From Tetmemena sp. SeJ-2015 (lineage: Eukaryota; Ciliophora; Spirotrichea; Sporadotrichida; Oxytrichidae), in contig JAJKFJ010020898.1 of the NCBI GenBank assembly GCA_027382625.1, positions 186,001-250,000 of the forward strand: a stretch of DNA of 64,000 nt, written 5' to 3'. The number at the start of each line of letters is the position of its first letter. The stretch's first letter is position 1. This document shows, piece after piece, positions 20,507 through 45,869 of the stretch. The notes beneath the pieces were generated by a model, which was not told the DNA's origin, ran no database searches, and saw only the letters and a list, made by a program, of their open reading frames with translations. The position numbers were made by a program, and so were the translations under genes.

Positions 20507-20519
20507 GATGTTGATCTTT
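20507..20519 (+). repeat. Scrambling pointer GATGTTGATCTTT (C-lobe side)
   Basis: Inverted partner of 43630-43642. Coding sequence begins here after about 260 bases of AT-rich non-coding DNA. Confidence 0.95.
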
Positions 20520-21046
20520 TGAAGAGACATACCAAGTATGGAGGAGATAAGAAAACAACTATACTTACAGAGGAGAGTCGCCGCATCAAGTGGTTCTGGG
20601 AAGTCCTCAGAGAATTTACTGAGGAGGATAAGTAGAAGTTTATAAAGTTCTGTTGGGGCTAACAAAGGCTTCCTGCAAATGATGAAGAGTTTGACCGTCG
20701 CTAAGTCAGATTCATGATCAAGCCATCTATCAAGAATACACATGGAGATGGAGCTCTACCAAAGGCAGATACTTTTTAATTAGAGCAGAATTTAAAGAGA
20801 GAATGTATGTATGCATCATGCATATATGTTATTACTTGCTTCTTCAACTTGGAATTGCCAGACTACAGCACCAAGGAAATCATGAAGCAGAGAATACTGC
20901 TGGCTATTTACACAGATAGTGATTCTATGAATGCAGAAGCTGAACATGCAGCCAACATTCATTTAAGTGACCCTATGTCAGGCGGACCTGGAAGAGGAGC
21001 AATCATGGAGAGACATTTGGATCAATCCTATGACGATGAGTATTGA
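20507..21046 (+). CDS. HECT E3 ubiquitin ligase, C-lobe segment (scrambled, displaced)
   Basis: The frame DVDLLKRHTKYGGDKKT, then IKWFWEVLREFTEEDKQKF, then FCWGQQRLP, then ALPKADT-C-FFNLELPDYS and KEIMKQRILLAIYTDSDS is the HECT C-lobe, with the catalytic Cys in the TC motif (codon TGC 20837-20839). It ends QSYDDEY-TGA at 21044-21046. It has no start codon and lacks the HECT N-lobe. The N-lobe lies at 43630-45775 on the minus strand and ends in the same 13 bases that open this segment (20507-20519). Joining at that repeat gives CGKNIVDVDLLKRHTKYGG, exactly the family's N-lobe to C-lobe transition. A 63-base IES (pointer TACT) sits directly before the catalytic Cys codon. The 3' end is only 128 bases from the stop of the convergent cyclophilin gene. 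Confidence 0.9.
20774..20836 (+). other. IES in HECT C-lobe next to the catalytic Cys, pointer TACT
   Basis: TACT lies at 20770-20773 and 20833-20836. Removing 63 bases yields GCA GAT ACT TGC TTC TTC (ADTCFF), placing the active-site Cys immediately after the junction. Confidence 0.9.
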
Positions 21047-21174
21047 GCAAAATCAGCAGAGCAATATTTTGTATCAAGAAAGTAGTCATTCAAGTTCCTT
21101 TAATTTCAATTCTTTAAACCTTAAATCAAACTGAAAATTATTTTAAATGATTAAGTAATTATGAAGATTATATA

Positions 21175-21888
21175 TCAGTAGTCACTCATTATTTCACCAC
21201 AGTCGCTAATGTAAACTTGCTATCTACATACTCCGCTCTAAGAACCTACCTTACTCACATTATATAGGATCTCCATTCCATTGATGACTTTTCCAAATGC
21301 AACATGATGCCCGTCAAGATGTGGATAAGCATCTAGAGTAATAAAGAATTGAGAGTTATTGAAATTCTTCATAGTGGGCTAAGTACCATCATTGCTGTTC
21401 ATGCTAGGAGGTTTTGACATTGATATAATGCCTGCTCTATCATGCGAATGGTTAAAGTTCTCATCTGGGAATTTCAGTCCATAGATAGATTCTCCACCCA
21501 GACCATTATTTCTGTGAATGTCTCCTCCTTAAAGCATGAAGCCCGGTATTATTCTGTGAAAAAGGGTATCTTTATAAGACAAGAGCTTCTTTGGTTTCTC
21601 TTCTTTGCCTTGCATATTTGATGAATTAGCCGATAACTCGCTAACGATTTAACCATCAGGGAGTTGAGAATCATTTGCAGTGTTTTATACCGGAGGCTGA
21701 TAATGCTAGCAGTATCCTTTCTCACCAGTGCAAAGTGCTCTAAAATTTTCAGAAGTCAGAGGGGTATCTCCAAATAACTGAATCTCAACCCTGCCTTACA
21801 AAGTGCCAGAGAGACTGATCTCGAGATATACTGTCGCTAAGATGTCCTCTGTATTATTTGGATTGCTGGGGTCGTCTACAAAATTCAT
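21175..21888 (-). CDS. Cyclophilin-type peptidyl-prolyl isomerase
   Basis: A continuous frame of about 237 codons with no IES. It starts [12 protein letters not shown] at 21888 and ends GEIMSDY-TGA at 21175. The cyclophilin core is clear: [51 protein letters not shown] (catalytic Arg in FHRIIPGF), [20 protein letters not shown] and the closing VYISDCGEI. It is longer than a minimal 165-residue cyclophilin because of an acidic N-terminus and an insert (about residues 80-110) before the FHR motif. A GTGAGT...TTCTTAG stretch near 21225 looks like a mini-intron, but read through it gives KVGSQSGV, which matches the family, so I treat it as coding. It catalyses cis-trans isomerisation of peptidyl-prolyl bonds, probably in the cytosol. 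TGA here confirms UGA as stop. Confidence 0.93.
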
Positions 21889-22111
21889 TCTTTAAAAAAT
21901 AATTATCTTTATTCAAGCTTTTCTACTCTAAGTGATTAATGAGTAAAAAAGTAAATATTCATTCACAGTCTCGAATGCAATTAGAATAACTTTATTTATA
22001 ATCCTTCTTCATTAAGGCATTATTAATTTGCAAAATTCAATAAAATTCACATTTATATTGCTCATCATTTAATTCTTAATTTAGAATTTATTAACTTCTA
22101 GATTTGGAATA
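21889..22111. promoter_or_regulatory. Divergent intergenic region
   Basis: It lies between the starts of the cyclophilin gene (minus) and the small protein gene (plus), so it should hold both promoters. It is AT-rich and no distinct element was recognised. Confidence 0.4.
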
Positions 22112-22532
22112 ATGAAAGCCAATACAGAGAATTACTTAAGTGAAGCATAAAAGCCAACTCCAAATACATAATGCCATAAATTTGTAATAAGTCGTCCGAG
22201 AACTCAAAAAATAGGTTATGAAAGGCTTTAATAACATTCGCACTAAGCAAAACTAGATTATTTTTCGAGAATTTGTAATTTATAGAAATTTTATTTTAGA
22301 TAAGAAACTCATAAAGTCTGCATTATAATCTTAGGACTTACTCTACAATTATCATTATGCTCTGCAAAGGAATAAGCTCGCAGCCCAAGAGAAGGAGTGC
22401 GTTTTCATAGGATTGAAAATGGCAGAATATTTTACAATTTAATTTTTTTATTTGAGATATTTGAAGTTCCCTCTAATGATCCTGAACTATAAACCAGTTC
22501 AGACTATTCCTATGATGAAAGCGAGTAATTGA
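22112..22532 (+). CDS. Small basic protein, unknown
   Basis: It starts ATG 22112 (MKANTENYLSEAQK). After removal of two IESs (pointers TAGAT and ATATTT) the frame reads HQAKLDKKLIKSALQSQ, NYHYALQRNKLAAQEKE, IGLKMAEYLKFPLMIL and ends IPMMKASN-TGA at 22530-22532, about 115 residues. It is predicted helical in the middle with a short hydrophobic stretch near the end. No family was recognised. Without IES removal one frame also stays open by chance to about 22560, because only TGA stops. Confidence 0.6.
22259..22301 (+). other. IES, pointer TAGAT
   Basis: TAGAT lies at 22254-22258 and 22297-22301. Excision of 43 bases gives QAKLDKKLIKSAL. Confidence 0.7.
22433..22462 (+). other. IES, pointer ATATTT
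   Basis: ATATTT lies at 22427-22432 and 22457-22462. Excision of 30 bases gives KMAEYLKFPLMILN. Confidence 0.7.
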
Positions 22533-22774
22533 AGCATAGAAACAAATGAAAAAGCAAATATGAATACAAAATCGGAGAATTTTCATGATGAAGAGATTAT
22601 CACCAAAAAGTCGGCCATTTAAAATGGGTGGTCATTCAATGTGGATGAATAGCTTAGTTAAGATGAGGTTTGGCAACAGCATCTCTTGAAAGAATAATTT
22701 AAAATTTAAGATATGAGCTAAAAATAGCTTCACAGTAAACAAAGATGATTATCCTATATTATAAGTTATAAATT

Positions 22775-24204
22775 GAAAATTTACTTCAACAAGGAACTTG
22801 GCAACTACTACTCCTGTATCATAAGATTCTTACACATGCGTAGTATGCATGGATAATAACTTTGATTACTGTTAACCTAAGTCTAAAGGCATGTTTGTCT
22901 ACGATTCAGCTGGCATTTGCGATGATTCCACTGTAACTAAGGCCTTAAATCCAACTACTCCCTACTACTGCTCAGATCAGAAAATTAGAAAAGTCTATCA
23001 CTTATTAAACAATCATACTGATCAGTTTTATACCTACTACAGATATGAGTTTCTGTCATTTTTCCCATGCCCGTTTTTCACTCAGAAATGTGGGTCAGAC
23101 ACAGCTCAACTTACTATTTCAGAAGAGGAGAAGACTATTGACACCTCTCTTATGAGTTAGGGAGATGTCTGCGTGTTTGAGATTTCCTACAATAAAGTTG
23201 ACGATGATCTTAAAGTTTGCCTAATTTTTGCTTGCGTATCTATTTTCTCATTATATTTTGTTTGGTTCTCGAAGACAACGAATGTTTAAGTTACTATAGC
23301 TGATGGATTTAAATAGCACCCCTACTCAATAAGTGGGAACTTCACTTTCGTGAGCAGGTTATTAAAAAGCGATGAGGAATTTGAAGTGGGCGACTACTGG
23401 TATAACATCACAACTCCTGGAAAAGCCTATCTCTTCATTAAGTGCACAGCTACCTACGGATATGCCTCTTTCTCTTATGGCAAAAAAGGACTACTCCCTC
23501 AATGGGCTCTAATCCTCATTATAGTAGGATCTTCTGTGGTTGGTTTGGCTTGCCTTTTCATTTGCTTCTGCTATGTTCGCAGATTGCAAAGAAGAAAGAA
23601 GTTGGCAGCAAGTGCTGGAACCTCAAAAGTTCAGAAGTTCCAGAGAGTAGAAACGGCAGAAGATCGTATAAATAAGTACAAATACAAATCTGGAGCTCTG
23701 AGCAGGCAGTCATTGGCCACAAAGCAAAACTAAATCAATTACTAACCTGAGGTTTACCCTGGCATGATGCTAGCTGGAGATGGGAAATATAAACTAGATG
23801 ACTTCAGCTAAATAACTCCACTAGACGGATCGCAAGTGCCAGCGCTTATGCCTAATCAAATGTTTGACTTCTCTAATATGCAAGATTCTACGCAATCCCA
23901 CCAGTCTGCGCCTCACCAGAATAATATATATTACCTTAAGATATAAATATTATTTTTATCTGGAGAATAACCCAATAATCAGTATGGATCCTAACGCTTA
24001 TGCGCCAGTTAATAACTTAGATTACACATAAATGGAGCCAAATATGTATGGACCTGGAGGCCCAGAGGTATAAAACTATCCTATGGAGCAAGATAACGCA
24101 ATGAACTCTTAATAAACTTAAGAATAAGTAATAGAAATATTACTTCGTTTCTTATTTAAGTTTATCCACATAATTATCCTTTCTAAATGCCAGGGTAAAT
24201 GTGA
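22775..24204 (+). CDS. Type I membrane protein with Cys-rich ectodomain
   Basis: The ectodomain begins near TTPVSQDSYTCVVCMDNN (about 22805) and has about eight Cys. A single transmembrane helix (WALILIIVGSSVVGLACLF, about 23500-23560) is followed by the basic stop-transfer RRLQRRKK. The cytosolic tail is rich in Q/P/N/M and ends YPFQMPGQM-TGA at 24202-24204. Three IESs are well supported (pointers GTTTG, AATAA, TAAGT). The signal peptide and start are not found: an in-frame TGA lies just upstream of 22775, so the first segment sits behind another IES or elsewhere. Possible role as a surface receptor or adhesion protein. No named family was recognised. Confidence 0.65.
23220..23264 (+). other. 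IES, pointer GTTTG
   Basis: GTTTG lies at 23215-23219 and 23260-23264. Removing 45 bases deletes a spurious hydrophobic stretch and gives DDDLKVWFSKTTNVQV. Confidence 0.85.
23925..23970 (+). other. IES, pointer AATAA
   Basis: AATAA lies at 23920-23924 and 23966-23970. Removing 46 bases joins SAPHQNN to PIISMDPNAYAPV. Confidence 0.8.
24130..24161 (+). other. IES, pointer TAAGT
   Basis: TAAGT lies at 24125-24129 and 24157-24161. Removing 32 bases gives QQTQEQVYPHNYPFQMP. Confidence 0.8.
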
Positions 24205-24911
24205 ACATTCATAAGCTAAAATATTGATTTATTTAAAATGGGAACTCAATTTTTATTTGTCTTTCATATAATTTCATCTCATCTCATTGAATTTATTTAT
24301 TTTTATTAAATTGAATAACGGAGATTAAATATATTTTAATAGATTAATCTAAGTAAATATTTTGTATTTAAATAATGTCACAATTGTGAATATTATAATA
24401 TCTGCATGGATTTTTTAATTCTATTTAAAGTATTTTCGATTATTTTGTTTGTGGTGATGGATATAGCAAAGGGTTGTAAATTTATTTATAGTTATAAGTA
24501 AGAATCATAGCTATTGTATAAGCTAAGTAATATATGTTAGTGCATATCCATCTCCTATTCTGAATATAATTCCATTTAGAAAGTCATTTTAATTTCCAAT
24601 ATTCTACTTATGAGGACAAATAAATTTTGATAAAGAGTAAAGAAATTTTATCAAATTTATTTTTAAGGTTCCAAGTAAATCTCACTCTAAATTATTGGAA
24701 ATTAAGTGATTGAATCTTGTTAAGCTTGTAGTTTTTCCCTTTATAAATTAATATGTACTAAAGCATTATTGTAAGAAGAAATCAGATAATTGGTTTGACA
24801 ACTAGGTCCTTCTATACTATAGACAATAGATTTTTTGACAAAACCACATCAAATCTAAGAATAAATTCTGTCTCCTTTAAATCTAAATTATTATTTTTTT
24901 AAATCGTGAAG
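24205..24911. other. AT-rich stretch without recognised genes
   Basis: No frame with protein-like content under either strand and no RNA gene recognised. Probably intergenic or germline-limited DNA. Confidence 0.5.
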
Positions 24912-25865
24912 ATGTTTTGACAAATTCTAAGAATCCTTTAATATTTTTAGTCTTGCTAAATCAGCCAATATATTTGAGCCTGCTTAACTACTTTCTTAAT
25001 TTACGATCTCTCGAAACTATAGTTGTATGTGCAGATGGAGGAGCTAACTTTCTATTTGAAATTATGAGAAATGAAGCTATCTCAAGTATAGGAGATGGAT
25101 CTAGTGAACTAAATAATTCGCAACTAATAAGATTAAAATAAAATATTGGATTAATTTAAATTAAAAGATAGATACCTTAGGCTATTATAGGAGATTTAGA
25201 TTCTTTGAAAGATGATGCTAAGGCATTTTACAATTATTAGATTATTTATTATCGCTTTAAAAAAAATATTTTTACAAATCTAGAGGAACTTAATTCATAT
25301 GTTTGCAAAGTGATTAAGATACTTTAATAATTTTATCCATATTAAAATTTTATGACACAAACGATCTTGAAAAATGTGAAAATGAAATTTAGAAAATGAA
25401 GGCCAAGTTTTAGCTTGAGAATCCTTAATCAAAAAATCTATAGTCATCTTCTATTTATCTTGGCGCTTTTGGAGGGAGGTTAGATCACACTATTTAGAAT
25501 TTAAGTTTGCTTTTCAGGTTCCCTTATCAATAAGATCACTCTTTTATAAAAATATAAGTTACAAATAATTTATTAACTCTGCTTACATGTTAGGAGAAGA
25601 GTCTATGGCGTTTAAAGTTCCAGCAGGCAAATCTGAAATAACCTGCAGTAACAGATTTGAAAAATCTGATGGAGGGATAGGAATTATACCAGGAGAGGAA
25701 AGTATAGTGTCAACTTAGGGTTTGAAATGGGATTTAAAAGACTATAAAACTTCGCTGAGGAAGAAAATATCCACTAGCAATTAGAGAGTGCGGGACAGTG
25801 TCCTCATACAATCAGACTAAGATCTTGTTTTTATCAGCTAATTTAACAAAGAAATCTTATGCTGA
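24912..25865 (+). CDS. Thiamine pyrophosphokinase, copy 1
   Basis: It carries the TPK motifs: FLVLLNQPIYLSLLNYF, VVCADGGANFLFE (nucleotide-binding ADGGAN), AIIGDLDSL, SDQDTNDLEKC, YLGAFGGRLDHTI, GEESMAFKVPAG, GIIPGEES and TQGLKWDL, then ISTSNQ and TGA at 25863-25865. The enzyme transfers pyrophosphate from ATP to thiamine. Two or more IESs break the frame, one with a short AC pointer within SDQDT (about 25330-25370). The start is unclear, since ATG at 24912 is followed at once by TGA. It is AT-richer and more divergent than copy 2, which follows about 380 bases downstream in the same orientation. Confidence 0.8.
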
Positions 25866-26247
25866 AGAAGAATAATTCTCTTTCTTCTGTTGAACTTTAA
25901 TCTAATTTAATTGTCTTATTTTTTTGTAATTTCAAATATTTATTAGATTCTATTAGGAAATGATCATCTTAAAAGCTTGAAAAATAAAAATATACTCATT
26001 TCATAGTCATAAACAACAACGACTTAAATCCAAATTTAGCTAGATAATTAAATACATCTATTAACTTCTTTTTTAAAGATAAAAGTAGAAACATGGAAAA
26101 AAATATTTATAAAAATGAATGAATGTAAGAAGAAAGCCAAACTTCTAAAAATATTTAATCATATTAAAAATCATCTTAATTATTCCTATATTTCATGAAG
26201 AGAACATTATTGAAATTTTCTATTTGATAAAAAAAATTATTGATAGC
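25866..26247. other. AT-rich spacer between tandem TPK genes
   Basis: No reading frame or repeat was recognised. Confidence 0.5.
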
Positions 26248-27150
26248 ATGGTGAGTCAATTAAAGGAAGAAAACCTTCACTTAGACAATAGCATCCTAGA
26301 CAGTTTCAGAGAATCAAGTAACCTAAACTCATTAAAGTTAATCAATTTTCACAGATTAAATTAAAGATGGATTGACTTTCAAAACTTACTTGATAATCTT
26401 GAATCAGCCTGTGAGTTACAAGTTGCTCTCCACTTGTTTTTCAATGACTGGAGATCCAGTGATAATTTGCGCTGACGGTGGTGCAAACAGACTCTACGAT
26501 ACTATAACGCACAAATTTCTTACTGAAAAAGAAAGCGAGGAATAAAAAGGGCTTTTGTTCAAGAAATATCTGCCTAAGTTGATAGTGGGGGATCTAGATT
26601 CAATAAGACCAGATGTCAAAGACTTTTATTCTGAGCTTGGAACTGAGGTGAGAGATTTATCTCATGATCAGGATACCACAGATTTAGAGAAGTCTTTAAA
26701 AGCAGTTCAGAAATTAATTGAAGATGATGGAAATATAGACTCTTAAGAGACTCAGATAAATATTTTGACTCTTGGCTCATTTGGAGGAAGACTGGATCAC
26801 ACACTAAGAAATATGATGGAGTTGCATAGGTAGCCTTTCTCTCCAGAAAAAGCTTTCTTCTTAGGGGAGGAGTCTATTGCGTTTTAAGTTCCTCAGGGTA
26901 GAACTACTGTGACTTACTCTAGTTACTTGAGTAGCTTATTTTAATATTTTTTTAAATGAGTCTGTACACACTTGTGGAATAGTGCCTAGTAGAGAGACTC
27001 GTATTAAAACGAGAGGATTAAAATGGGATCTCGGAGAAGCCCCATGGGATAAAACTAGCATGGATACACAAATATCAACTAGCAACGAAAGGTAGCAATA
27101 AAATGTAGAATTTGAACTAGACACTGGAATAATATTCATATTTAACTAGA
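26248..27150 (+). CDS. Thiamine pyrophosphokinase, copy 2
   Basis: Better conserved than copy 1: KTYLIILNQPVSYKLL, VIICADGGANRLYD, KLIVGDLDSIRPDVKDFYSE, HDQDTTDLEKS, TLGSFGGRLDHTL, GEESIAFQVPQG, then (after a TCT-flanked IES) VHTCGIVP, TRGLKWDL and QISTSNER. The first Met at 26248 (MVSQLKEENLHLDN) is followed by a frame change before KTYLIIL, so an IES lies near 26330-26385. No TGA follows the last conserved residues for about 300 bases in the unprocessed frame, so the end coordinate is approximate. The true stop is probably created by a further excision. ADGGAN and GDLDS are the substrate and metal-binding motifs. Confidence 0.87.
26921..26963 (+). other. IES in TPK copy 2, pointer TCT
   Basis: TCT lies at 26918-26920 and 26961-26963. 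Removing 43 bases gives TVTYSVHTCGIVPS, restoring the conserved TPK C-terminal motif. Confidence 0.85.
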
Positions 27151-27524
27151 TCAAAAATAAAATGTTATTTTAAAAACATAAAAAATTAATTTATAATAAA
27201 ATAAACACAACAGAAGATTAATTACCATAGAGAAAAATTATTTTTCCTCTTCTAGTTATTTATAAAATTAAATAGTAAATTTAATTAAGCTTTATTAAAT
27301 TTAAACATATCTTATTTTGTATTTGTATGATTGTATTTAAGTATTTTTAAATATATTCATAAGCACTATTAGTCTTGAGTATTAACAATGAATAACTTCT
27401 TCTATACTATTTTGTTTTGGCTTACTACTTATTTTGATTTATGATATAAGAACATAATCTAATGAAAGAGAAACTTATCTTTCTCTAATTTAGATTTTAA
27501 TAATTTCTAATAAATTTTAATTTG
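27151..27524. other. AT-rich intergenic stretch
   Basis: Nothing recognisable on either strand. Confidence 0.5.
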
Positions 27525-28079
27525 ATGGCAGAAAAATTAGTATCAAAGTCTACTGATTTCAGAGACTTTTGCAATCATATGACAGTTTTCGCTGAGAGCT
27601 AGCTTGACTTCCATCGCTAAAACTACTACGGACTTAGCGTAAGTACTAATCACTGATACTTTAACACATGAATCGACTGAGAGATGGCAATAATTTATCT
27701 ATAGTAACAAGTGTATAAGCGAATAATGAAATGCTATGAAGAGCCACGCATGACAAATGAAGAAACTGACTCTTGTGCAGCTGTTCACAGAGACTATATG
27801 CAGAAAATATAAAAGGAGCTCACTCAAAGCCTAATGTAAAAGAGTGTAAGTTTTTGCTCTAAAATGAGTATGATAATTTCGAATCCTTCCTGTCTTTAAT
27901 CAATAAACTTAATTCAATTTTCATTCTAGTAAGAACTTGAGGCTTGCACAGACTTCTGCAAAAATGAAAAAGACATGCCCTGCATCAACACTTGCGGCAC
28001 AAAATATCTTCAAGGTCTTCATAAAGAATTCGACTCAAGGCTTTTGAACTACATTCAAGAATATAACAAAATAGTTTGA
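27525..28079 (+). CDS. Small protein with twin CX3C motif (Tim9/10-like)
   Basis: It starts MAEKLVSKSTDFRDFC at 27525 and ends YNKIV-TGA at 28077-28079. Two GT-AG introns (GTAAGT at about 27639 and GTAAGT at about 27840-27930) interrupt it. The C-terminal half reads ACTDFCKNEKDMPCINTCG, two CX3C pairs with a 7-residue spacer, in a helical context. Twin CX3C is the signature of small Tim chaperones of the mitochondrial intermembrane space. Here the spacer is shorter than the usual 11-16 residues and the protein is longer (about 130 residues), so this is a tentative call. The next gene starts 81 bases downstream on the same strand. Confidence 0.5.
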
Positions 28080-28159
28080 GTTTGTCTTGATATAGATTGT
28101 TCAATTTAAAGTAATTAATCTCTAACTTAATTAATTACAAATTAAATTCAAACTTAAAA

Positions 28160-28912
28160 ATGTACGACGGCTTCTATCTTGCGAAGAATTTAGTTCAAGC
28201 TCTTTCTTTGCTGGTTATCAATATTTGGTGCTTTGGTGGATTCGGTTTGGACAAAACCTTCGTCTTCATTTTCTTCGAAGGGCTTTGCTAGTTCCTAGTT
28301 CAGTTTGTAATTATTTGATCCATGATTTTAAATTCGTTTACAGATAAATGTCTGCGGCTACTTCACAAGCTCGGGTGGAAGAGTGCTTTTTAATTTGAGC
28401 TTCATTAGGTAAGATAATAGCTTCTAAAAAATTGTCTCATCTTTCCCTAAGTATAGACAAGTGGCAGTGATGTTCGTGGAACCCTTTTTTGCTTTTATCT
28501 TGGCAGACTTCACAATCAGACTTTCCAACTTGAGAAATGAGAGACAGATCTCCTAAAAGCTGCAACCACTCACTCTTTTCATTGGCCTCATCAGCTTACT
28601 GAGACTTTTATCCTTGCTACCTGACCTCTTTGTAATTGAAATTCTTATAAATTTTGACTAAAAATTAACTTTGTAAATGTTGAGAACACAGTATTTATAA
28701 ACTATGAGGGCGCTAGCTACTACAAACTCACCTTCGCGGACTCTTTAGCATATCAAGCAGTAGATTTTCTCATCATAAGTTACAGTCTAACCCTACTAAC
28801 ATTCGCTGCTGTCTGGTTAAAGCGAAAATACCTATTGCTCCTTTGGGCCTTCAAACTTGCAGCTTTGCTTGCAAAACTTGTCATTGGCTTCTAAAGTTTA
28901 AGAAATTTCTGA
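28160..28912 (+). CDS. Multi-pass membrane protein, unknown
   Basis: It starts MYDGFYLAKNLVQAL at 28160 and ends SLRNF-TGA at 28910-28912, about 210 residues. Five or six hydrophobic segments are visible: LSLLVINIWCFGGFG, TFVFIFFEGLCQFLVQF, VAVMFVEPFFAFILADF, LFIGLISLLRLLSLLP, DFLIISYSLTLLTFAAVW and LLLLWAFKLAALLAK. Two short GT-AG introns (near 28310 and 28409) and one IES (pointer TAAAT) interrupt it. The family is not recognised. It is flanked by same-strand genes at 81 and 43 bases, unusually tight. Confidence 0.7.
28653..28678 (+). other. IES, pointer TAAAT
   Basis: TAAAT lies at 28648-28652 and 28674-28678. Removing 26 bases gives VIEILINVENTVFINY. Confidence 0.8.
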
Positions 28913-28955
28913 ATTAAATTCGAAATTCAAATAGCAGAGATAATAAAGTTTGATC

Positions 28956-29380
28956 ATGGAAGATGGTCTAGAGTTAATTAATTTCTTGATCGTGTACTAG
29001 TACCTTGGAATGCAAACTTTGCTTTGCGATGTGGAGGACAGCAGAGAGAAGCTTGATCGCTTTTTCAGCTACAATTTCCTATTCTTTGATGACGACTGAG
29101 ATGAAGAGAAGCTTTCTTTAACTAGATCTAACCTTTTTAGATAAATAAAAACTTATTTCTCTTACTGTATTCACCTCTTTAAATTTTGCTGATCTGATTA
29201 ATTGGGAGTTGTTGAGAAGTGATATATAAGTCATAATTAAAAACTAAAACTCATAGCTGATTTCCAGTTTGCCAGCTTAAGAAAAAAAGAGACACAAAGT
29301 GGAGGACTGCCGCTTCTAAGAACACACCGCCATCAGACTCGTATCACTATGTCTAATTCATGAATTACTTGTATAATACT
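28956..29380 (+). CDS. Small charged protein, unknown
   Basis: It starts MEDGLELINFLIVYQYL at 28956. Read directly it stops at TGA 29097-29099 after 47 codons. Two repeat-flanked inserts (GATGA, 12 bases; AGCTT, 164 bases) can be removed to give FLFFDEEKLKKKRDTKW and then AASKNTPPSDSYHYVQFMNYLYN. The restored frame stays open into the neighbouring 5S rRNA gene, so the real stop is not identified and the end is approximate. No family was recognised. Confidence 0.5.
29093..29104 (+). other. Possible 12-base IES, pointer GATGA
   Basis: GATGA lies at 29088-29092 and 29100-29104. Removing 12 bases eliminates an in-frame TGA and gives FFDEEKL. It is very short for an IES, so this is tentative. Confidence 0.5.
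29115..29278 (+). other. IES, pointer AGCTT
   Basis: AGCTT lies at 29110-29114 and 29274-29278. Removing 164 bases joins DEEKL to KKKRDTKWRTAAS in frame. Confidence 0.7.
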
Positions 29381-29459
29381 TTTTAAAAGGAACATACCAT
29401 GAGAAGAGATTCTGACTTCAGAGATACTCGACCCGGGGAAATAACAGCAAAAGTAAAAA

Positions 29460-29577
29460 GCTATCAGCACGGAGGTTTCCCGAGCGGTCCCCCACCTCAG
29501 TACTAACAACGCCTTAAGCCGCTTAACTTCGGAGTTCGGATGGGATCCGGTGCACATGGCTTAGTATGGCCGATAGC
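29460..29577 (-). rRNA. 5S ribosomal RNA
   Basis: The minus strand carries the conserved 5S elements: GCACCGGATCCCATC, CGAACTCCGAAGTTAAGC (loop B/C and the internal control region), GTACTGAGGTGGG and GAAACCTCC. The 5' end GCTATCGG pairs with the 3' end CTGATAGC to close helix I. The length is about 118 bases. A T run follows the 3' end (complement of 29455-29459), as for RNA polymerase III termination. Confidence 0.95.
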
Positions 29578-29598
29578 GATAGTCTACCGTCAATATCT

Positions 29599-29607
29599 CT
29601 ATATAAA
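29599..29607 (-). promoter_or_regulatory. TATA-like element upstream of 5S rRNA
   Basis: The minus strand reads TTTATATAG about 25-30 bases before the 5S 5' end, a typical spacing for an upstream TATA that assists RNA polymerase III. It is a position-based inference. Confidence 0.4.
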
Positions 29608-29839
29608 CCAATGGGCACTACCGAATATCGCAACTTTTGTACTCTTACATATGCACTTGCTTTCTCCATAAACACCGTGCATTTAAGTTTCACTCTATTC
29701 CTTACATTCATTTAGCGTTTGCAATTTCTCGCAGATTTAAAATTCCACTCTCTTGACTCCTATATTCATAGAGAATTCGCAGATTGAATTGAATTGGAGT
29801 AAGAATTAATCAAACTTATTAACTTTAACTTTTCATAAA

Positions 29840-31323
29840 ATGGACTTCAAGAAAGGCGGTTGGAATCCCACAGCTGGGATGAACTTCGATAACATCTCAT
29901 CTGATCTACTAGATGATAAGATGACTAAGAACATAATAAGCGATTTGAGAAAGAACCTCCCACCTGGAGGCTTCCCCAAGCACAAGCCTGTAATCACGGG
30001 AGGCACTCCAAGTTCTGGACTTGCATCAGGCAAGAATGCAAAGAGAGGCGTCTCTTCAAATCTGGGAGGTGCTGCTGGTGGTATACTAAGCTCGCATGGT
30101 GATGGTGACCTAGTCACTAAGATGGCGGCACGGTTGCAGTAACTTGAGTCAGTGAATCAGTCACTAAGAGCAGAAGTGAAAGAGAAGAGCTTAAAGATAG
30201 AGACTCTAGAAAAGGAAAACTTCATCCTCTAGACATCTGCTTCTCCTGATTTTACTAGATCTTTAAAAGAGGCATAAGCAGAAAGAGATTCGTTTAAGCT
30301 GTAATGCAAGGAGATGGAAGAGTTTCTTGCTGACTATGGCTTGAAATGGGTGGGGAAAGACGGATAGAGGGAAGGAAAGTTTGACAAAAATTAGATCAAT
30401 CAAGAGTTAGCTCATAACAAACCTTATTACAAAAATAACTTGCCATCCGAGATAGATACAGAAGTTCTAACTAGAAGAATTGAAGAACTCAACTTCATTG
30501 CTGAAAAGCAAAGAGTCGTCAAAAATAAGGATGGCTTGCATTAGTTGCAAATTTTAGTATTTATAGTACTTAAAGATTTAAGTTCTAGAAGCACTCTGAT
30601 GTACTAATTTTCTTCTTTAAAAACGGACTGATAATAAAGGGCTTCCCTTTCTACCCTTACCATTCTTAAATAATATTATATGTGAACTTAAATTTATGAT
30701 CTCGTGAAGCATAGAGTGTGCTTTCTGATATTCTAGACGGTTACTTCCCTTATGATTTGAAAAAGAAATACCCTGAAGGTGTGCCCTTGAAGCCTGTGGA
30801 CTGCACCGACGACACTTACTCAGCTGAAAACGTGAAAACTAACCCAAAATTCAAGGTTTTTGGAGATCTTGAGAAAGATATTAACCCTATGTCCAAGGAA
30901 GAATTCCTCAACCAATTCCCTAAACAAGTTATCAAGGAAGGTAATGTAATACCTATTAGAGAAGAGCTAGAGAAAAGGTTCCGTGACACTCAGGAGTTAG
31001 ATGTTAATAAACTCAACTCTCACGAGCCTATAGTCATTGAGAACGATGTCACTCGCAACATTGATAACATTCCACCCACAGATATAGTCACTATGAGAGT
31101 CAGAACTGAAACTGGAAGAAGAAATCTCATCCTCAAGTTATTGGTAACTGATCAAGTAGGCAAGGTGTATGCTATGGTTAAACCATATTTGGAGAATAAG
31201 GGAAAGCCTTTTGAGATCAGAACTACCTTCCCTAACAAGGCATACCCTGAAGATGAGTAGAAGACTTTGAAGCAGTTAGGATTAGCCCCTTCTAGTGCTT
31301 TAGTTATTTAACTTAAGCCATGA
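29840..31323 (+). CDS. SEP/UBX-domain protein, UBXN11-like
   Basis: It starts MDFKKGGWNPTAGM at 29840. An N-terminal Gly/Ser-rich region is followed by a coiled coil (LESVNQSLRAEVKEKSLKIE, about 30140-30230) and DGLHQL. A SEP domain follows (NGLIIKGFPFYPYHS, then SVLSDILDGYFPYDLKKKYP). The C-terminal UBX domain (TVTMRVRTETGRR region to QLGLAPSSALVIQLKP) ends at TGA 31321-31323. The coiled coil-SEP-UBX order and the ILDGYFP motif fit UBXN11 (socius). UBX domains bind the ATPase p97/Cdc48 as adaptors. IESs lie near 30555-30590 and 30668-30711 (pointer AA) within the SEP domain. Length about 460 residues. Confidence 0.8.
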
Positions 31324-32226
31324 AAAATTCTTTAAAAGTACGATCAATATTATTTTGTGACTTCAATTGAATAAATTGTTTTACTATATGCTCGTATAAA
31401 GTATCAAGCATTTTATTTTTCCAGTCAATATCTCTGAGTCGAAGTCAACTTAACCTCATCCATTTGTGCGTTTATTTGAAATTTTACAAAGTGCTGAGGT
31501 TGTGACTTGCCTGTCATTATGATAAATAAATTAATGATTATTCTTTCCTAATATGATTATTTTATCTTAATTTTTGATGATTAGATAATGAAAATTAATT
31601 TAATTAAAATTTATAAATAGATTTTTAAATGACCTATTTTAATTTGTAAATAACTCTAGATATAAAAAATAAACTCACGAAAATATAATTTGCTTATTTA
31701 TTGTTAAATGTTGTCGAATTGGAAAGACCATAAGTTTATCTAATAACTTAGGTTATACTCAAAATAAGCCTAAAATTTAAAATGATCTAATTGTTTCATC
31801 ATATGCTACAGTAGTCTGATTAATTCCACCTTCAACAATAAGAAATTCATCTGATACAACCACCTTCAAACATATTTAAATTCAAAGCTATTCTTCAACG
31901 TTCTAGTTGCTTCAGAATAGTCTGAACTTTTTTATTTTAGCTTTCCAAGAGCTTTATATAATTATAGCTTACAACGACAACTCCTAGTTTTGAATAAGAT
32001 ATTAAGTATGTTGTAGTGGTAAGTCTTTTTAACTACTTCATGGTAATTCAAAGAGATTGCTTAATTTCAAAGGAAGATGAGGATCTAAGGAAATTTAAAT
32101 TTAAAGAGTCAAATTTATTTATGATTATAAATTCCATTCTTGATTCAGGACTCCCGAAAAACGAATTTAATTTAAGTTCATAGAATTTTCAGTCTTAATA
32201 TTACAGCTTCTAAATGTAAATTTAGA
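31324..32226. other. AT-rich stretch before the USP segment
   Basis: No convincing gene. A plus-strand frame at about 31820-31990 lacks TGA but has no recognisable content. The following coding segment begins at the pointer at 32227. Confidence 0.5.
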
Positions 32227-36187
<3,961 letters not shown>

Positions 36188-36277
36188 TGATGCGGTAGTG
36201 CTGTTTAAAACTTTATCTAGGATTGGATTAATCCTACTGCTTAAAGAAAATTCTAAATCAATTGAGTTTTATTCTAT

Positions 36278-36285
36278 TGCTATCA
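36278..36285 (-). repeat. Scrambling pointer TGATAGCA (5' partner, USP gene)
   Basis: The plus strand reads TGCTATCA. It is the inverted partner of 32227-32234 and marks the end of the 5' coding segment of the USP gene. Confidence 0.85.
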
Positions 36286-37435
36286 CCACTCGGAGTTTAT
36301 TTAATCTCTACTGAATCATAGAGTGTGTACTCTTTCCACTTCTTCCACCAATCCATAGCGACAAGGTAATACTCCTCACCGGCTTTTTAAGGAATGGCGG
36401 GCATTTAACTCAACATTAATTTTACAGTTTAAGCCTCATTTGTCAACTCCTCCTTGCTCTTTATTTAATGAGCAGAATATAAAAGATCTTAAAATATATA
36501 GCTACTACTATAAATTTTATGCTCCTATAATTAATTTTCTTTTGATTAAGATGAGGGAATTCCTTTTTCATTAGCTCTAATCTCTCAGTTCTCAATCGCT
36601 CCAGATCTTGCTTCTACTATAATAAATTTCCAATTTATAAATAGTATTTTATCCATTGCTTGTGCTTTTCCAGTTTTTCTTCCTCACTTAGCTCCTTTAA
36701 ATCTCGCTGGTCCTCATCCTCTTATTCGATAATCAGTAGCATCTCAAGCACACTCTTAATGTAATTTTCTTAATGTTAATTCAAATTAGTATTTATGCTT
36801 TTTATGATGACTCTATGCGTAGTTATTTAAAACTTCCTCCTCAGACTGAGTCAGATAAAAGAACAAGTATTCACACACAACATTTTATTCTTCAAGAGAG
36901 TTTTAATCAAATTATTTTTACAATAAGTGAGGGTCTCATAGAGAAGACTTGCAGTGCTCTGCCTCAGATCAGGTTTTAAGTTCTTATTTAGCTTATGCTT
37001 GAGGCTCAAAAGTAGGTTTATCATAGTGCGGAATACTTAATATTATAATCCAAAACTCAACAAATTCAGTAGAGGATTATAACTTGCTCCTTGAGTGGCT
37101 CTTTCTTGACAAAGTGCTCTTGAATGGCCGCAACTGCCTGTTTAGCTTCCTGGTCAGTGATTGAGAGGAACTAGTCAAAAGTCTGTCCAGTATTTTAAGC
37201 TGCGAACTTCTGTTTTTGTTTTTCCAAATTGTACTCACAGTATTCAATTTAAAAAGACATGTAAATTATCTATATCGATAGTTAATATATCATAGTATTC
37301 TTCAAAAGTAGGAGGGTAGACAGAACTGGTTTGCGAGAGTTATTTATTATTGCTGAGAGGCGGGGTTGCAGGTGGGTACTCCTTAGATTGTTTATCATTA
37401 GCTGGTTATGACTAATTTGCCCTTTTACTGCTCAT
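36278..37435 (-). CDS. DUSP-USP protease, inverted 5' part of the scrambled gene
   Basis: It starts MSSKRANQSQPANDKQSK at 37435. The frame (IES pointer GAATACT at 37239-37300) continues FEEYCEYNLEKQKQKFAAQ, AIQEHFVKKEPLK, then (across a large insert of about 300 bases, 36770-37090, pointer not settled) MLLIIEQEDEDQRDLKEL and a DUSP-domain start, KAGEEYYLVAMDWWKKWKEY. It stops being protein-like just after TPSGDS at the pointer TGATAGCA (36278-36285, minus sense). The DUSP second half lies at 32227 onward on the plus strand. DUSP domains occur next to USP catalytic cores (USP4/11/15 group). This segment lies downstream of, and inverted relative to, the rest of its gene. Confidence 0.85.
37246..37300 (-). 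other. IES in USP 5' part, pointer GAATACT
   Basis: The complement AGTATTC lies at 37239-37245 and 37294-37300. Removing 55 bases gives PPTFEEYCEYNLEKQ in frame. Confidence 0.85.
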
Positions 37436-37909
37436 TTTTAATATTCTAACTTCACAATAGAATATTAGAATTACTATTTCAAGAATATATATATATATAT
37501 TCATTAAATGTATTTCATTTTATTCCTGAGATTAATAAATAGATTATTAGCTATATTAATTATATTTAAAATACAAAAACCATTGTAACATCTTGTATTA
37601 AATTTCATCTTCCCTTTATCATCAAAGCTCATGATATTAAAGAAAAATATCACCACCAATAAAATATAAAATCATAATGAAGATTGTAATAAAGCTATCA
37701 TAATTTTTTTTCATTTAAAAATAAATGCTATAATTTATTGAGCAATTTCTTTCCTAGCGTGAACCAATCATTCCCTATAAGTTTAAATTTCTTTTATCTA
37801 TTTCTAGAAATTCTCATAAATATCACTGTAAGTGGTTTAAATGAAGACTATGACTTAATAATTTGGAATTAACACTTTTATAAGTATCAAGTAAAATTTG
37901 AATAGATCA
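37436..37909. other. AT-rich intergenic stretch
   Basis: It includes an (AT)n run near 37489. No gene was recognised. It separates the start of the USP 5' part (minus) from the 3' end of MoaE (minus). Confidence 0.5.
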
Positions 37910-38619
37910 TCAGTAGTCTTTAACCTGCTCTCTCAAAAGCTTAAACTCAGGATTTTATTTCCATGTGCCAGTTTATGCCTTGTTGACTAATTTATCTTGC
38001 TATGTTTAAGTTACTGATTAATCTTATTAAGTTTCAGAAGTGATTTCACTTTATTAAGCCTAAAAAATAATAAAAACTAACTATCATAAGGTATTAAAGC
38101 CCCTTCTTCTGCTGCATAAAATTCTTTCTTCCAAATGGGAACCTTTGTCTTCAGCTCATCGATTGCCCAAGCTACAGCATTCAAAGCTTCCTTGCGATGA
38201 GGTGACACTGCCACTATATTCACAGAAGCTTCACCAACAGGCTAAAAAGTAATATCATTATCAACCAAGCAACTAAATTTACTTGAAGAACTTAAGTTAC
38301 TTATGATAAACTTACACATTCCCCTATTTTATGATAAATAGATATTCCTGATAAGTTGTATTCTTAAAGAGCCTTCTCTCCAAGTATCTGCATTTATTTT
38401 ATTGCCATGGATTCATAACACTCATAGTGCAGAGTGACTACCTTCTTTCCATTGAAAGTTATTACGAGTTATTCCTGAGAAGCTGCCACATGCCCCGCAT
38501 TCAGGTAGTTTAAGCTCATCCACCTGATCTTACAAAGTAGGTAGAGACGAGTCGGCATAGATTTTCACTTTCACTCTATCTGAAAGATTTTGCAGCTATG
38601 AGGCGTCAATTTATTCCAT
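37910..38619 (-). CDS. MOCS2B: MoaE / MOCS2B, molybdopterin synthase catalytic subunit
   Basis: It starts [17 protein letters not shown] at 38619. The MoaE core is clear: [17 protein letters not shown], then [18 protein letters not shown], then [20 protein letters not shown], then [29 protein letters not shown] (catalytic Lys in the PIWKKE region). The tail is Q-rich and ends VKDY-TGA (complement of 37910-37912). With MoaD it converts precursor Z to molybdopterin for molybdenum cofactor. One GT-AG intron (GTAAGTTTATC...TTTTTAG) follows GEC, and another intron or IES follows LIPYD. Between TRNN and FNGKK one extra T in a TTT run breaks the frame. A 10-base ATAACT-flanked excision would also restore frame but would delete the conserved TR. 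Confidence 0.88.
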
Positions 38620-38742
38620 TCTTTATTATCTTGAAATGATTTACTGAAAATATGGTAATTTCTATAAAATTTTAATTTGGAATGCACAAATTCATCTAAT
38701 TTAATAGGTAAAGATATTTCGCAATAAACATATCAATCATAA

Positions 38743-41700
38743 ATGGTAGAATCATCAACTCATGCAGTGAAGCAATCCACTGATCAAGACACTCTTGAGT
38801 TCTTCTTTAAAGGTCCCGTAAACTATAATTACCAATATAAATATCGTTTATTTTTTGATAATTTGGTTATCAGCTCTATGTTTCCACAAGATAATCAGTA
38901 ACTCAAACGAGGGAGAAGAAGTGCCATAATAAGACAAAATATATCTGTTAGCAGGAGAGGGACCTACTCTGTCAGTTTATGATCTCCAAACTAAAAGCCT
39001 TGTGCAAAGCATTAAACTCTTTGCCTCCTGTTTCAAGATAATAGGAATACATTTGGCTAATGAATATCAATAGATAAATACTTTTAATGATGGAAATAGA
39101 ATTGTGGTCAGCACAGAAAAATCACTGAAAGTTCTCTAACTTAAATCTGATAAAGAGTATGTATGATTATTAGTTTTTTAATGATCATAGTGGATATGAA
39201 GTTACTAACTCATTTGATAAGAGAGTCATGATAAAATAGTCCATAGTAGACTAGATGAGAATATTCTTTACACTATAAACGCTCACAATTTAATATTAAA
39301 TGGGATGATCCCGTAATTATATTGAATTTCATAGAGAGCTGGGACTTGAACAATATGACTTTGTTAAATCGCACTTTCTGTAACGAAGAGTGCATTCTTT
39401 ACTCAGCAGACCTGAATTTGAAAACTAATCTGATTGCAGGAGGAACAGTATTTAGAACTATCTTGGTATGGGGAGGAGAGAGAATTGCAAAATGGAATCA
39501 CCAAGACTAAATACCAACCGACGCAACCTCGTTGAAAGAGAATGCCTTGAAAGTACTTTACAAGTTGGAAGGACATGCAGGAGTGCTCTTTGATGTGAGA
39601 AATTAATTTTTTGTATGATGTGAAGTTTCTTTAAGACGATATTTTGGCGTCGGTTTCTGATGATCGCTCTCTTAGAATTTGGAGGCTGGATCTTAGCAAG
39701 GAAGGCGAATATCAGCAACTAAGTGAGTGCTATGGCCATCGCTCAAGAATTTGGAATGTTGCTGAGCTAGGTTTCGGAGGGATAATGGTGACAGTGAGCG
39801 AAGATGCAACTTGCAAGCTCTGGGAGTCTACCGACTTCAAGTCTACTTCAAACAAGTTAGTTACTGCTAAGTTATTATGATAAAAGTCAATAAGTTCTAT
39901 AAATTAATTGTGGAATAACCGATCGATTGAAACTCTGAAAGGTCATTCAGGAAAGAACGTGAGAGCTCTCACTTGCCTAGATGGCTTAATAGCCACAGGT
40001 GGAGATGATGGAGCCATCAAAGTATGGAAAGCAAAGGATATCTTAATCTCCAAGAAACTTCTCTCTCAAGATTCCAGACCAAAGAGGAGTCCAAGGAAGA
40101 TGAACTTTAAATCAAGCATCTTTTAAATTATCCAAAATTATTGAATGAACAAAGTATGACTGCCAAGGAAACTGTAATAACGAAGATCAGAGTTGACATG
40201 CCTGAGGAGAGTGAAGCACTGCAAGAACTCAGAATGCTCAAAGAGCATCAGCTACTCAAAAGGTAAAGAGAGAAAGAAGAGGAAGAGAAAAGACTTGAGG
40301 AAGAAGAAGCAAAGAGATTAGCAGAGACCGCCTCAGAGGAAAATAAGGAGACTGTCACAAGCCCAAGAAAAAGAAGAAAGCTTCTGTTCCAAAACCAAGG
40401 CCAGAGGAAAACGTCAACCAAATCAGAGCGATAGATATATTAGACGTTAAAGTGCAAGATGAAATCTTTCATTCTTTTTCTTCTAATGAGGCATTTTCGG
40501 TTCCAGTAATAGTAGCTGCAACTAACAAGGGTTCAGTGTTTGCTTTCGAAGCTAGATCAAAAGATGATATTAAATAACATTTACTCTATCAAGATGAACT
40601 ACAGCAAAACATTCAGGATATTTAAACTATCAAATTATCCAAAGCCGCTATTGTTGCCTTTTCAATAGGAGAGGGGATGCTAAGGCTCCTTCTAATTACC
40701 GGAGAAAACGAGTCTGGTTAAATAGTAGGCAATGAAATTGCAGATTTGTAAGTTTCTGACATCAAACTCATTAATCTAAAATTATAAGCCTCTAAATTTA
40801 AATTGATTTAACTCTTGAACCTATTCTTGAATGTGGAAGCTTAAGATGAGAAAAATGTTTATTGACATAATACATTTTTTAAGAACTTTTATCTAATTAA
40901 TACTTTAAGGAATTATTTAATCTTTTATTTAATCGTATTCTGCGAATATTTCTCTGTGATTGCTGCCAATGGAAGAGCTGAACTTATAGAGACTCTGTTT
41001 GTTTTCAATAAGCAACAAAAGAGTTGTAGGCAGTTGATTCCCTCCACTTAAACTTATAAAGTGACTATCAAGACTCAATTCATTTGCCTCTAAAAGATTG
41101 ATTCTTTGGGAGTGTTTGTTGCTGGAGATACTAAAGGCAATCTGTTTCTTTTTGACCCAACTACTAAACCTCCTAAGGATCATTTCATTTTCTTTTAATT
41201 ACAATTTTATTGGAGGACTTAAAAGCTACCGACGCTGTGGGCCCTGATAGTGAGAAAATAGATCTCAGTTAAGTAATTCTCCACTATCAACAGTTAAAAG
41301 CACACAAAGATGAGCGAGTGCTTAGTCTCCATTACTCTAAAGAGTAGGGTTTACTTTATTCCACCTCAAAAGATAACTACATCAACGTCTACAGCTTTGA
41401 TAGTCAAAAGCATATTCAAAAAATGCAATCTATTAAGGAAGAAGATCTTAACTTGATCTACATCAAAAATATTTATTTTCTCTCAATAAGTAGTACTATT
41501 AGGAGAATATATATATATGATGATCTACAACATTTTCATGAGAAACAGAAGATGATACTACAGGGCTTCTATGGAAACTTTGCCTACGTCTGGAATAAGC
41601 AAGAGAATATGCAGATATTCAGTATTGATACTAAAGGAGGAAACAGGCCCATGAGACTTAAAATCTAGGATGAGTCTATAATCTCTGACTAGCAATAATC

Positions 41701-43079
41701 ATAGTAAATTATATAGTGATAAATTAAAATATGGGAGAAACTTTGTCTATGCCTACTCATATGGTGATTGCATTGTAATTTGCAATAACTGGCTTTTTAA
41801 GGACCAATACTAAGCTCTCTAAGAAGCAGGGTCAATGGAAAACTAATTCACACTGAGGGACTCTCTTCACGGAAGAGAAATATTGACGTCATGTGGTTTA
41901 CCGCTAAGTGAAGGTAAGACAGTTATACTTACAGGCTGTGAAGACTCTTTTCTCAAAGTTTCACATTTTGAAAGCACAAGCGATGGTTAAAGAACACTCT
42001 CAGTCAAGCAAACTTTCAGCAATCACGTTGCTTCAATTCGAACAATCACAAAGTCCAAGATAAAGGGATCTTATTTTATTCACTCTTTGTAATCAAATAG
42101 TTACTTGATAGTAAGTGGAGGTAGTCGCATGTAGGCCAACGTATTCTTAGGCCAGTATTCAAAAAGCAGTCCAGCCGATGCAGTCGATTTTAAAATGAGC
42201 CATATTTGTAACTTCATGAGGAGTAGTGAGCAAGATGAGGAACAAGACTTTAGAATAATGTCAAGTTGCATTATCTCTTAAACTAAAGGATTTTCATCTG
42301 CTAATGGACTTTAAAACGAACAAATTTCTTCTTAAATTTGGCAAGACAAGCATCTCGAAGCCTACTGCTGTTTCGGAACTTCAAGTGGAGAGTTACAAGT
42401 TTTTAAAGTCAACTTCAAGAAGAGAAGACTTGAGGATTCGTATAAAATTATGCTTGCAAGCTCAGTCCTCTCTATGAAAAGGGTTAGAGTAGATGAATAA
42501 GTATGGCTTATTATTTGCGGACTAAGTAATGGAGATGTTTATATCCTTACAATGGATTTGAGTAGTTAGGGATAAAGCAACTCTTTAGCTAATATATCTC
42601 CGCACGCAGAATTAAAGCAGGTTCATGATTTTGGAGTTAATACATTAGATGCTTCTTACAACTCACCACAAAGGAATTACTCATAGTTTCAGGTGGAGAC
42701 GACCAGTAACTGTCAGTTATAAAGATGAAAAAGAATGCAAGTGAAACAAGCAACTTCTAATTTGAGATAGAATCCTAATCCAAAAAATATGCTCTCTCTA
42801 TTTATTTATGATATTTTTGCTCATTCCTCTTGCATAAAGGGAGTCGTATTAGCTAAATCTACTGGCGATGATAGTAAGATTCAACACAAAGTATTTTCTT
42901 CCTCATATGATTAGCGTTTCAAAGAATGGAATTTAGAGCAAACTAATTTGACCCTAGTTAAAACAAGCAGGCATTGCTTGAGTGATCTCAACAATATTTG
43001 CAAAATTAACACAAAGAGCAGTAGCCATTCTAGCTAATAAGTTGTTTTAGTTGGATAGGGAATCGCTGTTTTTAATTGA
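38743..43079 (+). CDS. WDR6-like WD40-repeat protein (tRNA 2'-O-methylation cofactor)
   Basis: It starts MVESSTHAVKQSTDQD at 38743 and ends VGQGIAVFN-TGA at 43077-43079. WD repeats are clear: YLLAGEGPTLSVYDLQ, GGTVFRTILVWG, LEGHAGVLFDVKF, LASVSDDRSLRIW, CYGHRSRIWNVAELG, VTVSEDATCKLW, LKGHSGKNVRALTCL and ATGGDDGAIKVW. Two WD40 blocks are separated by a charged insert (EKEEEEKRLEEEEAKRL, near 40280). GEGP near the start, GTVFxxIxVW and SVSDDRSxRxW fit WDR6/Trm734, partner of the FTSJ1/Trm7 methyltransferase for tRNA wobble-base ribose methylation. Frame changes throughout show several IESs (for example near 38815, 39140, 39600 and 40870). This gene lies between segments of the scrambled HECT gene. 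Confidence 0.75.
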
Positions 43080-43169
43080 ATTATCTTATTGAATTTTTAA
43101 GAGTGATATTGACTTGAGCGCTCTTGAACGCATAGATTTTTTGATTCATTGATATTGTAGAGTGAAGTG

Positions 43170-43500
43170 ATGAAAGCAATGACTGACAAACTTGAATCCT
43201 TCATCAATTTCATTTGCCAAATCATGAGCGCTTATATCAACAGAAAGAAATATGTTTGGATAAGTTAGAACTTTGGTATTTCCAACAATAGATTTTATAG
43301 TGAAAGATACAGGTAAAAATAAAAGGTCATCAAGCTTAATGATATAAATTAGAGACGAGGAAAGATTATAAAGGCATTAGCAAAATTATCATGAGGAGGA
43401 CTTCATTATAAAAGATGAGAAGAGATAAGGAGGCTCATTATAAATTAAGATTATTGGCCGATTGCTTTATTCAATTATGTCATTCAATGAAAATGTAATT
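43170..43500 (+). CDS. Possible small gene or displaced segment, unknown
   Basis: A frame opens with MKAMTDKLESFINFI (43170). A second frame gives protein-like TLVFPTIDFIVKDTGKN and RDEERLQRHQQNYHEED up to about 43460. The two need at least one IES to join. There is no recognised domain and no clear stop. It lies between the WDR6-like stop and the HECT N-lobe segment and could be a segment of another scrambled gene. Confidence 0.3.
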
Positions 43501-43629
43501 CATTTACTCCAAATCTGGCTTGCATTTACATTTTTAGTTTGTCTTTTAAATTATAAATTATAAATAAAATTTATTAAGAAATAAATTACTGTTCCAGACT
43601 ATTAATTTGCCTTTATTTGTTTTGAATTT

Positions 43630-43642
43630 AAAGATCAACATC
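43630..43642 (-). repeat. Scrambling pointer GATGTTGATCTTT (N-lobe side)
   Basis: The plus strand reads AAAGATCAACATC. The same 13 bases in opposite orientation open the C-lobe segment at 20507-20519. Flanking bases differ on both sides, so the match is exactly 13 bases. It codes for DVDL. Confidence 0.95.
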
Positions 43643-45775: not shown

Positions 45776-45869
45776 TCTTTACAATTTATGACATTTTAAT
45801 GTATAATTTATTGTTATTTGGTGGATAGTCATATATTTATTTCACTTCATTCAAATATACTTTATGTAT

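Follow-up and report, generated by a model that had tools for sequence, protein, structure and literature searches.

A 64,000-nucleotide stretch of the ciliate Tetmemena sp. SeJ-2015 (positions 186001-250000 of contig JAJKFJ010020898.1, here C1977; hereafter the window) carries the two halves of a gene for a HECT E3 ubiquitin ligase, separated by 23 kb and oppositely oriented, with one short repeat of 13 bp at both junction edges. With high confidence we read this as a spirotrich gene that is scrambled in the germline (micronuclear) DNA and put back together in the somatic nucleus through an inversion guided by a pointer. At least two macronuclear-destined blocks would carry the ligase. On joining, the C-lobe block would be turned round with respect to the N-lobe block, and a single pointer copy would remain; short internal eliminated sequences (IESs) inside the blocks would be excised at pointers of 4-5 bases, and the genes between the two blocks would go their own way. 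The joining event in development and its guidance by RNA templates we infer by analogy, since excerpts from two studies describe, for hypotrichs such as Oxytricha, how germline blocks are joined at pointers in the developing macronucleus with parental macronuclear RNA as the guiding template (PMC9797194, PMC2394655). Coordinates are window positions unless a contig is named, and genetic code 6 alone (TAA/TAG = Gln) was applied in translation.

The C-lobe segment occupies 20507..21046 on the plus strand (158 codons and a TGA stop in code 6, read without 20770-20832), and the N-lobe segment occupies 43630..44698 on the minus strand. Against the 306 positions of the Pfam HECT profile, the N side covers 25-197 (85.5 bits), the C side 195-300 (96 bits) and the join 25-300 (192 bits); these abutting ranges bear out a preliminary description of this DNA, according to which neither half is a complete HECT domain. 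A homology search, which scored only the 7992 candidates with most words in common, returned 65 proteins, the best at approximately 50% identity; the junction is spanned by the alignment in 61 of the 65, and in 57 it is gapless from 10 residues before to 9 after. The joined protein of 448 residues, compared by tblastn with a 94-kb stretch that includes the window, matched in these two places only, and no further HECT piece was found in that stretch. Judged by its sequence, the joined product is a HECT E3 ubiquitin ligase with a near-complete domain that includes the C-lobe cysteine: removal of 20770-20832 yields the motif ADTCFFNLELP, the cysteine of which we take to be the catalytic one of HECT enzymes. 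The conserved C-lobe contains both TAA and TAG in frame.

The two segments meet at a 13-base pointer, GATGTTGATCTTT, placed at 20507..20519 on the plus strand, the 5' edge of the C-lobe segment, and at 43630..43642 on the minus strand, the 3' edge of the N-lobe segment. A word search located it in just the two places and orientations claimed beforehand and nowhere else in the window (two matches, with 0.01 expected from 100 shuffles). Identity between the two sites is exactly 13 bases, the flanks diverging at once on either side, and the chance that 13 bases agree at a site already set by protein homology is about 6e-8 (33% GC). Joined at the pointer and translated with code 6, the halves read CGKNIVDVDLLKRHTKYGG, which is the uninterrupted, in-frame product that had been proposed. 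The coding blocks are inverted in the germline DNA, and the pointer is, as the preliminary description held, longer than those of simple IESs, at 13 bases against 4-5 for the five IESs seen.

The assembly containing the window (146.2 Mb, 5213 contigs) is mainly germline, since a C4A4 20-mer is scarce in it, with 67 matches, 21 of them in a single contig, and a position at the first bases of only nine contigs. These nine contig starts, like the TAA and TAG codons in frame within the conserved HECT domain, are ciliate traits of the host. One contig differs in this respect, C2828, where approximately 350 bases rich in C4A4 repeats (C2828:3805-4156), far longer than the 20-base ends of other contigs, are possibly a germline chromosome end. 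An exact search with 27 bases from the C-lobe start found four contigs, and a similarity search with 20507-24500 found the identical four; the N-lobe is present in the assembly only on C1977, C3719 and C5201. C3719 agrees with C1977 letter for letter in all that was compared (80 kb and both C3719 ends), and is therefore a redundant contig that lends no independent support. C468 shares with C1977 the left flank of the C-lobe and the 63-bp IES, and the two contigs are 95.6% identical across 17.1 kb of aligned bases. That the assembly contains three distinct C-lobe sequences suggests a duplication, or the presence of more than one diploid strain.

On C5201, a contig of 10,034 bases, N-lobe and C-lobe are contiguous across a single copy of the 13-mer (C5201:8758-8770). 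The contig matches 29255-20833, 20774-20507, 43630-44156, 44200-44261 and 44315-44698 in succession, and the steps overlap by exactly one pointer each: TACTT, the 13-mer, TTAGT and CTCAT. It is without the three short segments that interrupt the HECT domain in C1977, namely the IES of 63 bp inside the C-lobe (20770..20832, plus strand, one TACTT copy counted), present in C1977 and C468, and two in the N-lobe segment on the minus strand, of 48 bp (44157..44204, pointer TTAGT) and 58 bp (44262..44319, pointer CTCAT). A probable intron with approximate limits, 43862..43938 on the minus strand as given by the tblastn coding limits, is kept in both C1977 and C5201. The C5201 version of the N-lobe (C5201:8758-9764) is a diverged one, and holds a 42-bp insert with the pointer CTCA that C1977 is without. 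At 23559 an insert with the pointer ATTT measures 48 bp in C5201 and 47 bp in C468 and is absent in C1977; it lies in a neighbouring gene, and here versions of a single locus differ in having or not having an IES-like sequence. Further upstream, the HECT gene includes 44699..45841 on the minus strand, within the open frame 44210-45841, and probably continues beyond 45841; apart from 59 bases of C5201, matches to 44640-48640 are confined to C1977 and C3719.

The C5201 match to the HECT gene stops at the equivalent of 44698, beside the contig end and a dispersed element that forms it. This element, which has a fixed terminus, recurs in 17 further contigs. In an alignment of the terminus from eight contigs, C5201 among them, two (C1993 and C1048) have their flanks in common and represent a single place. 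The element encodes a helicase-like protein ending MFKKMMRG, with weak DEAD/ResIII matches below the Pfam cut-offs, and its places include L005:9791-10000 and L025:1501-3210. Because it combines retained IES-like inserts with the dispersed element at its end and no telomere (C4A4 is found at neither end), C5201 seems from these features to be a germline molecule. Its identification as a somatic chromosome was rejected, given the absence of C4A4 ends, the 8.4 kb that it extends into neighbouring genes, the inserts that it keeps and the dispersed element at its end. It is possible that C5201 is an unfinished developmental molecule, or a chimera. According to an excerpt on the actin I gene, inversion usually follows the removal of conventional IESs, O. 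trifallax providing one exception (PMC2394655), which makes a developmental intermediate less likely.

Substitutions between these versions suggest strong selection on a coding fragment that lies 23 kb from its partner. Between C1977 and C468, in both of which the C-lobe is cut off at the pointer, this lobe shows 9 synonymous and 0 nonsynonymous changes (P about 5e-7 under neutrality). From this ratio the orphan C-lobe seems to be in use, since a C-lobe without an N-lobe would hardly be conserved; the argument assumes that C468 has been scrambled since its split from C1977, as the common flank indicates. Between C1977 and C5201 there are 5 synonymous and 0 nonsynonymous changes in the C-lobe (synonymous divergence, dS, 0.055), and 40 synonymous and 1 nonsynonymous in 864 exon bases of the N-lobe (dS 0.25), a count that leaves out a few codons beside the intron. 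The rates of the two lobes differ (Fisher P 0.0004), and the two exon blocks of the N-lobe have dS of 0.29 and then 0.14. Divergence falls from the N-lobe to the C-lobe and on to 99.8-100% identity at 24000-26500 and 100% at 27500-29255, with 97.6-98.6% between these two stretches; no obvious step marks the 13-mer.

Purifying selection on the C-lobe is the chief reason to believe the scrambled copy functional, and it bears directly on the leading alternative, that a plain 23-kb germline inversion broke the HECT gene on this haplotype and left the halves as dead relics, with the working copy elsewhere. A single inversion with a 13-base staggered break would have this geometry, and C5201 has the unbroken order at the junction. 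Relics would not be expected to show the ratios of synonymous to nonsynonymous change found for the C-lobes of C1977 and C468 (9:0) and the N-lobes of C1977 and C5201 (40:1); moreover, C5201 does not present the whole gene, its match stopping at the equivalent of 44698, and the upstream part of the gene was found on C1977 and C3719 only. We consider this explanation very unlikely. Slightly less probable again is an artefact, in which C1977 or C5201 would be an amplification or assembly chimera. Amplification chimeras typically show short inverted microhomologies, and C5201 is a small contig (10 kb) with a mosaic pattern of identity to C1977. Such a chimera is contradicted on the C-lobe side by C468, an independent sequence, 95% identical, that backs the scrambled state; in C5201, the N-lobe is a version of its own with 40 synonymous differences, and of the IESs three are missing and one is extra, none of which would be expected of a chimera of C1977 pieces. 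That the halves are joined as RNA by trans-splicing, and not as DNA, found no support here and is most improbable, as a 13-base repeat at the junction is needless for splicing and the joined sequence with one pointer copy exists as DNA in C5201.

Some observations nonetheless weigh against somatic rebuilding of a scrambled gene. The assembly yielded no somatic contig of the HECT gene capped by a telomere, although telomeric contigs are so few that this absence says little. As C3719 is not independent, the N-lobe side of the scrambled arrangement stands on one contig, C1977; C468 shows the C-lobe side only, and its N-lobe partner is absent from the assembly. The preliminary description had predicted a sequence crossing the junction with a single 13-mer, and C5201 provides it; this contig does not look somatic, so that its joint is no proof of somatic joining, and the somatic product itself was unobserved.

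Since C5201 looks germline, one germline genome seems to hold both a scrambled and an already joined version, and we give roughly even chances to this being so, with C5201 either preserving the ancestral order or being a locus restored when it recombined with somatic DNA or with a template copy. C5201 keeps the intron, the 42-bp and 48-bp IES-like inserts and the dispersed element, yet is without the inversion and the three C1977 IESs. Inverting 20507-43629 once, with a break staggered by 13 bases, would produce this layout and put a copy of the broken word at each end; if the order in C5201 is ancestral, scrambling and pointer arose together in one inversion. Repair from somatic DNA may also account for C5201, in that it would remove IESs and scrambling at once and keep the intron, but the 42-base insert must then be younger or have been spared. 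By a third route, a block may have been partially duplicated and different copies lost, which the larger divergence of the N-lobe fits; against this, a similarity search (E<=1e-4) found no decayed N-lobe copy upstream of 20507. Similarity between the two flanks at the far breakpoints was not significant in six comparisons, in which 0.07 to 0.86 of 300 shuffles reached the observed score. Neither for 40.5-43.6 kb nor for 44640-48640 was another version found in the assembly that might reveal the unscrambled order on its other side. Distances of 5, 9 and 14 changes among the C-lobes place C1977 between C5201 and C468, although recombination, evident in the identity mosaic of C5201, blurs the order of the versions.

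The intervening 23 kb (20520..43629) contains other genes, detected with Pfam and as 5S rRNA. Pfam was run on a selection of 23 open reading frames (ORFs) from 20507-43629, of which nine matched at E<=1e-3; 14 ORFs outside the interval gave 0 matches at this threshold. The interval includes a cyclophilin (21175-21912, minus strand), two genes for thiamin pyrophosphokinase (TPK) in three ORFs (24839-25865 and 26255-26959, plus strand), 5S rRNA (29459-29577, minus strand), a UBX gene (30700-31323, plus strand), a USP gene in three ORFs (32144-36187, plus strand), the first of which has only a DUSP match below the Pfam cut-off, and a weak WD40-like match, also below the cut-off (41655-42728, plus strand). 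Where at least ten genes had been claimed between the halves, six clear loci including the 5S rRNA were recovered; ten are not proven, and MoaE was unseen in the submitted ORFs. Outside C1977 and C3719, only matches of less than 170 bases were found for 32000-36500. Beyond the interval, C1544 carries a version of most of 53500-58000 that is 91-97% identical, with several length differences, and partial second versions thus exist elsewhere along the window. At 18264-19194, 1.3 kb from the C-lobe, C1977 has a 929-base insertion that is absent from C468, a foldback element with inverted arms of approximately 390 bases, 92.6% alike, and a TA repeat at its ends.

In kind, a locus of this sort is already known. 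Scrambled genes number thousands in Oxytricha and Tetmemena according to excerpts from PMC9797194, and one more is therefore ordinary; the same excerpts give pointers of 2-20 bp as canonical, with longer ones at scrambled junctions, which the lengths found here fit. The actin I gene of Stylonychia lemnae and Oxytricha trifallax, as described in part of PMC2394655, is alike in its inverted blocks, its pointers of 3-19 bp and the conventional IESs within; unlike it, the HECT junction bridges 23 kb with other genes, and a joined version lies on another contig. The nested, or Russian-doll, loci of Oxytricha and Tetmemena, in excerpts from PMC5940158 and PMC9797194, likewise place genes between the blocks of another gene, and one example has an 18 bp pointer bridging other loci, which is similarly long; in contrast to those loci, the genes enclosed at the HECT locus are known as present, not as scrambled. 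The model of duplication and decay of macronuclear-destined segments (Gao et al. 2015, as summarized in an excerpt of PMC9797194) also has two versions of a block, one per partner, in one genome, but here the versions stand on different contigs and differ almost only synonymously, and no decayed copy was found beside the scrambled C-lobe. Searches of open-licence literature on intraspecific or allelic scrambling, on scrambled against nonscrambled paralogs and on germline IES loss showed, among the papers listed, none that describes in its title or the start of its abstract a germline with scrambled and joined alleles side by side. A joined version existing alongside is the less ordinary part of this locus and worth following: if it is real, such versions would allow the origin or reversal of scrambling to be studied within a single genome rather than between distant species.

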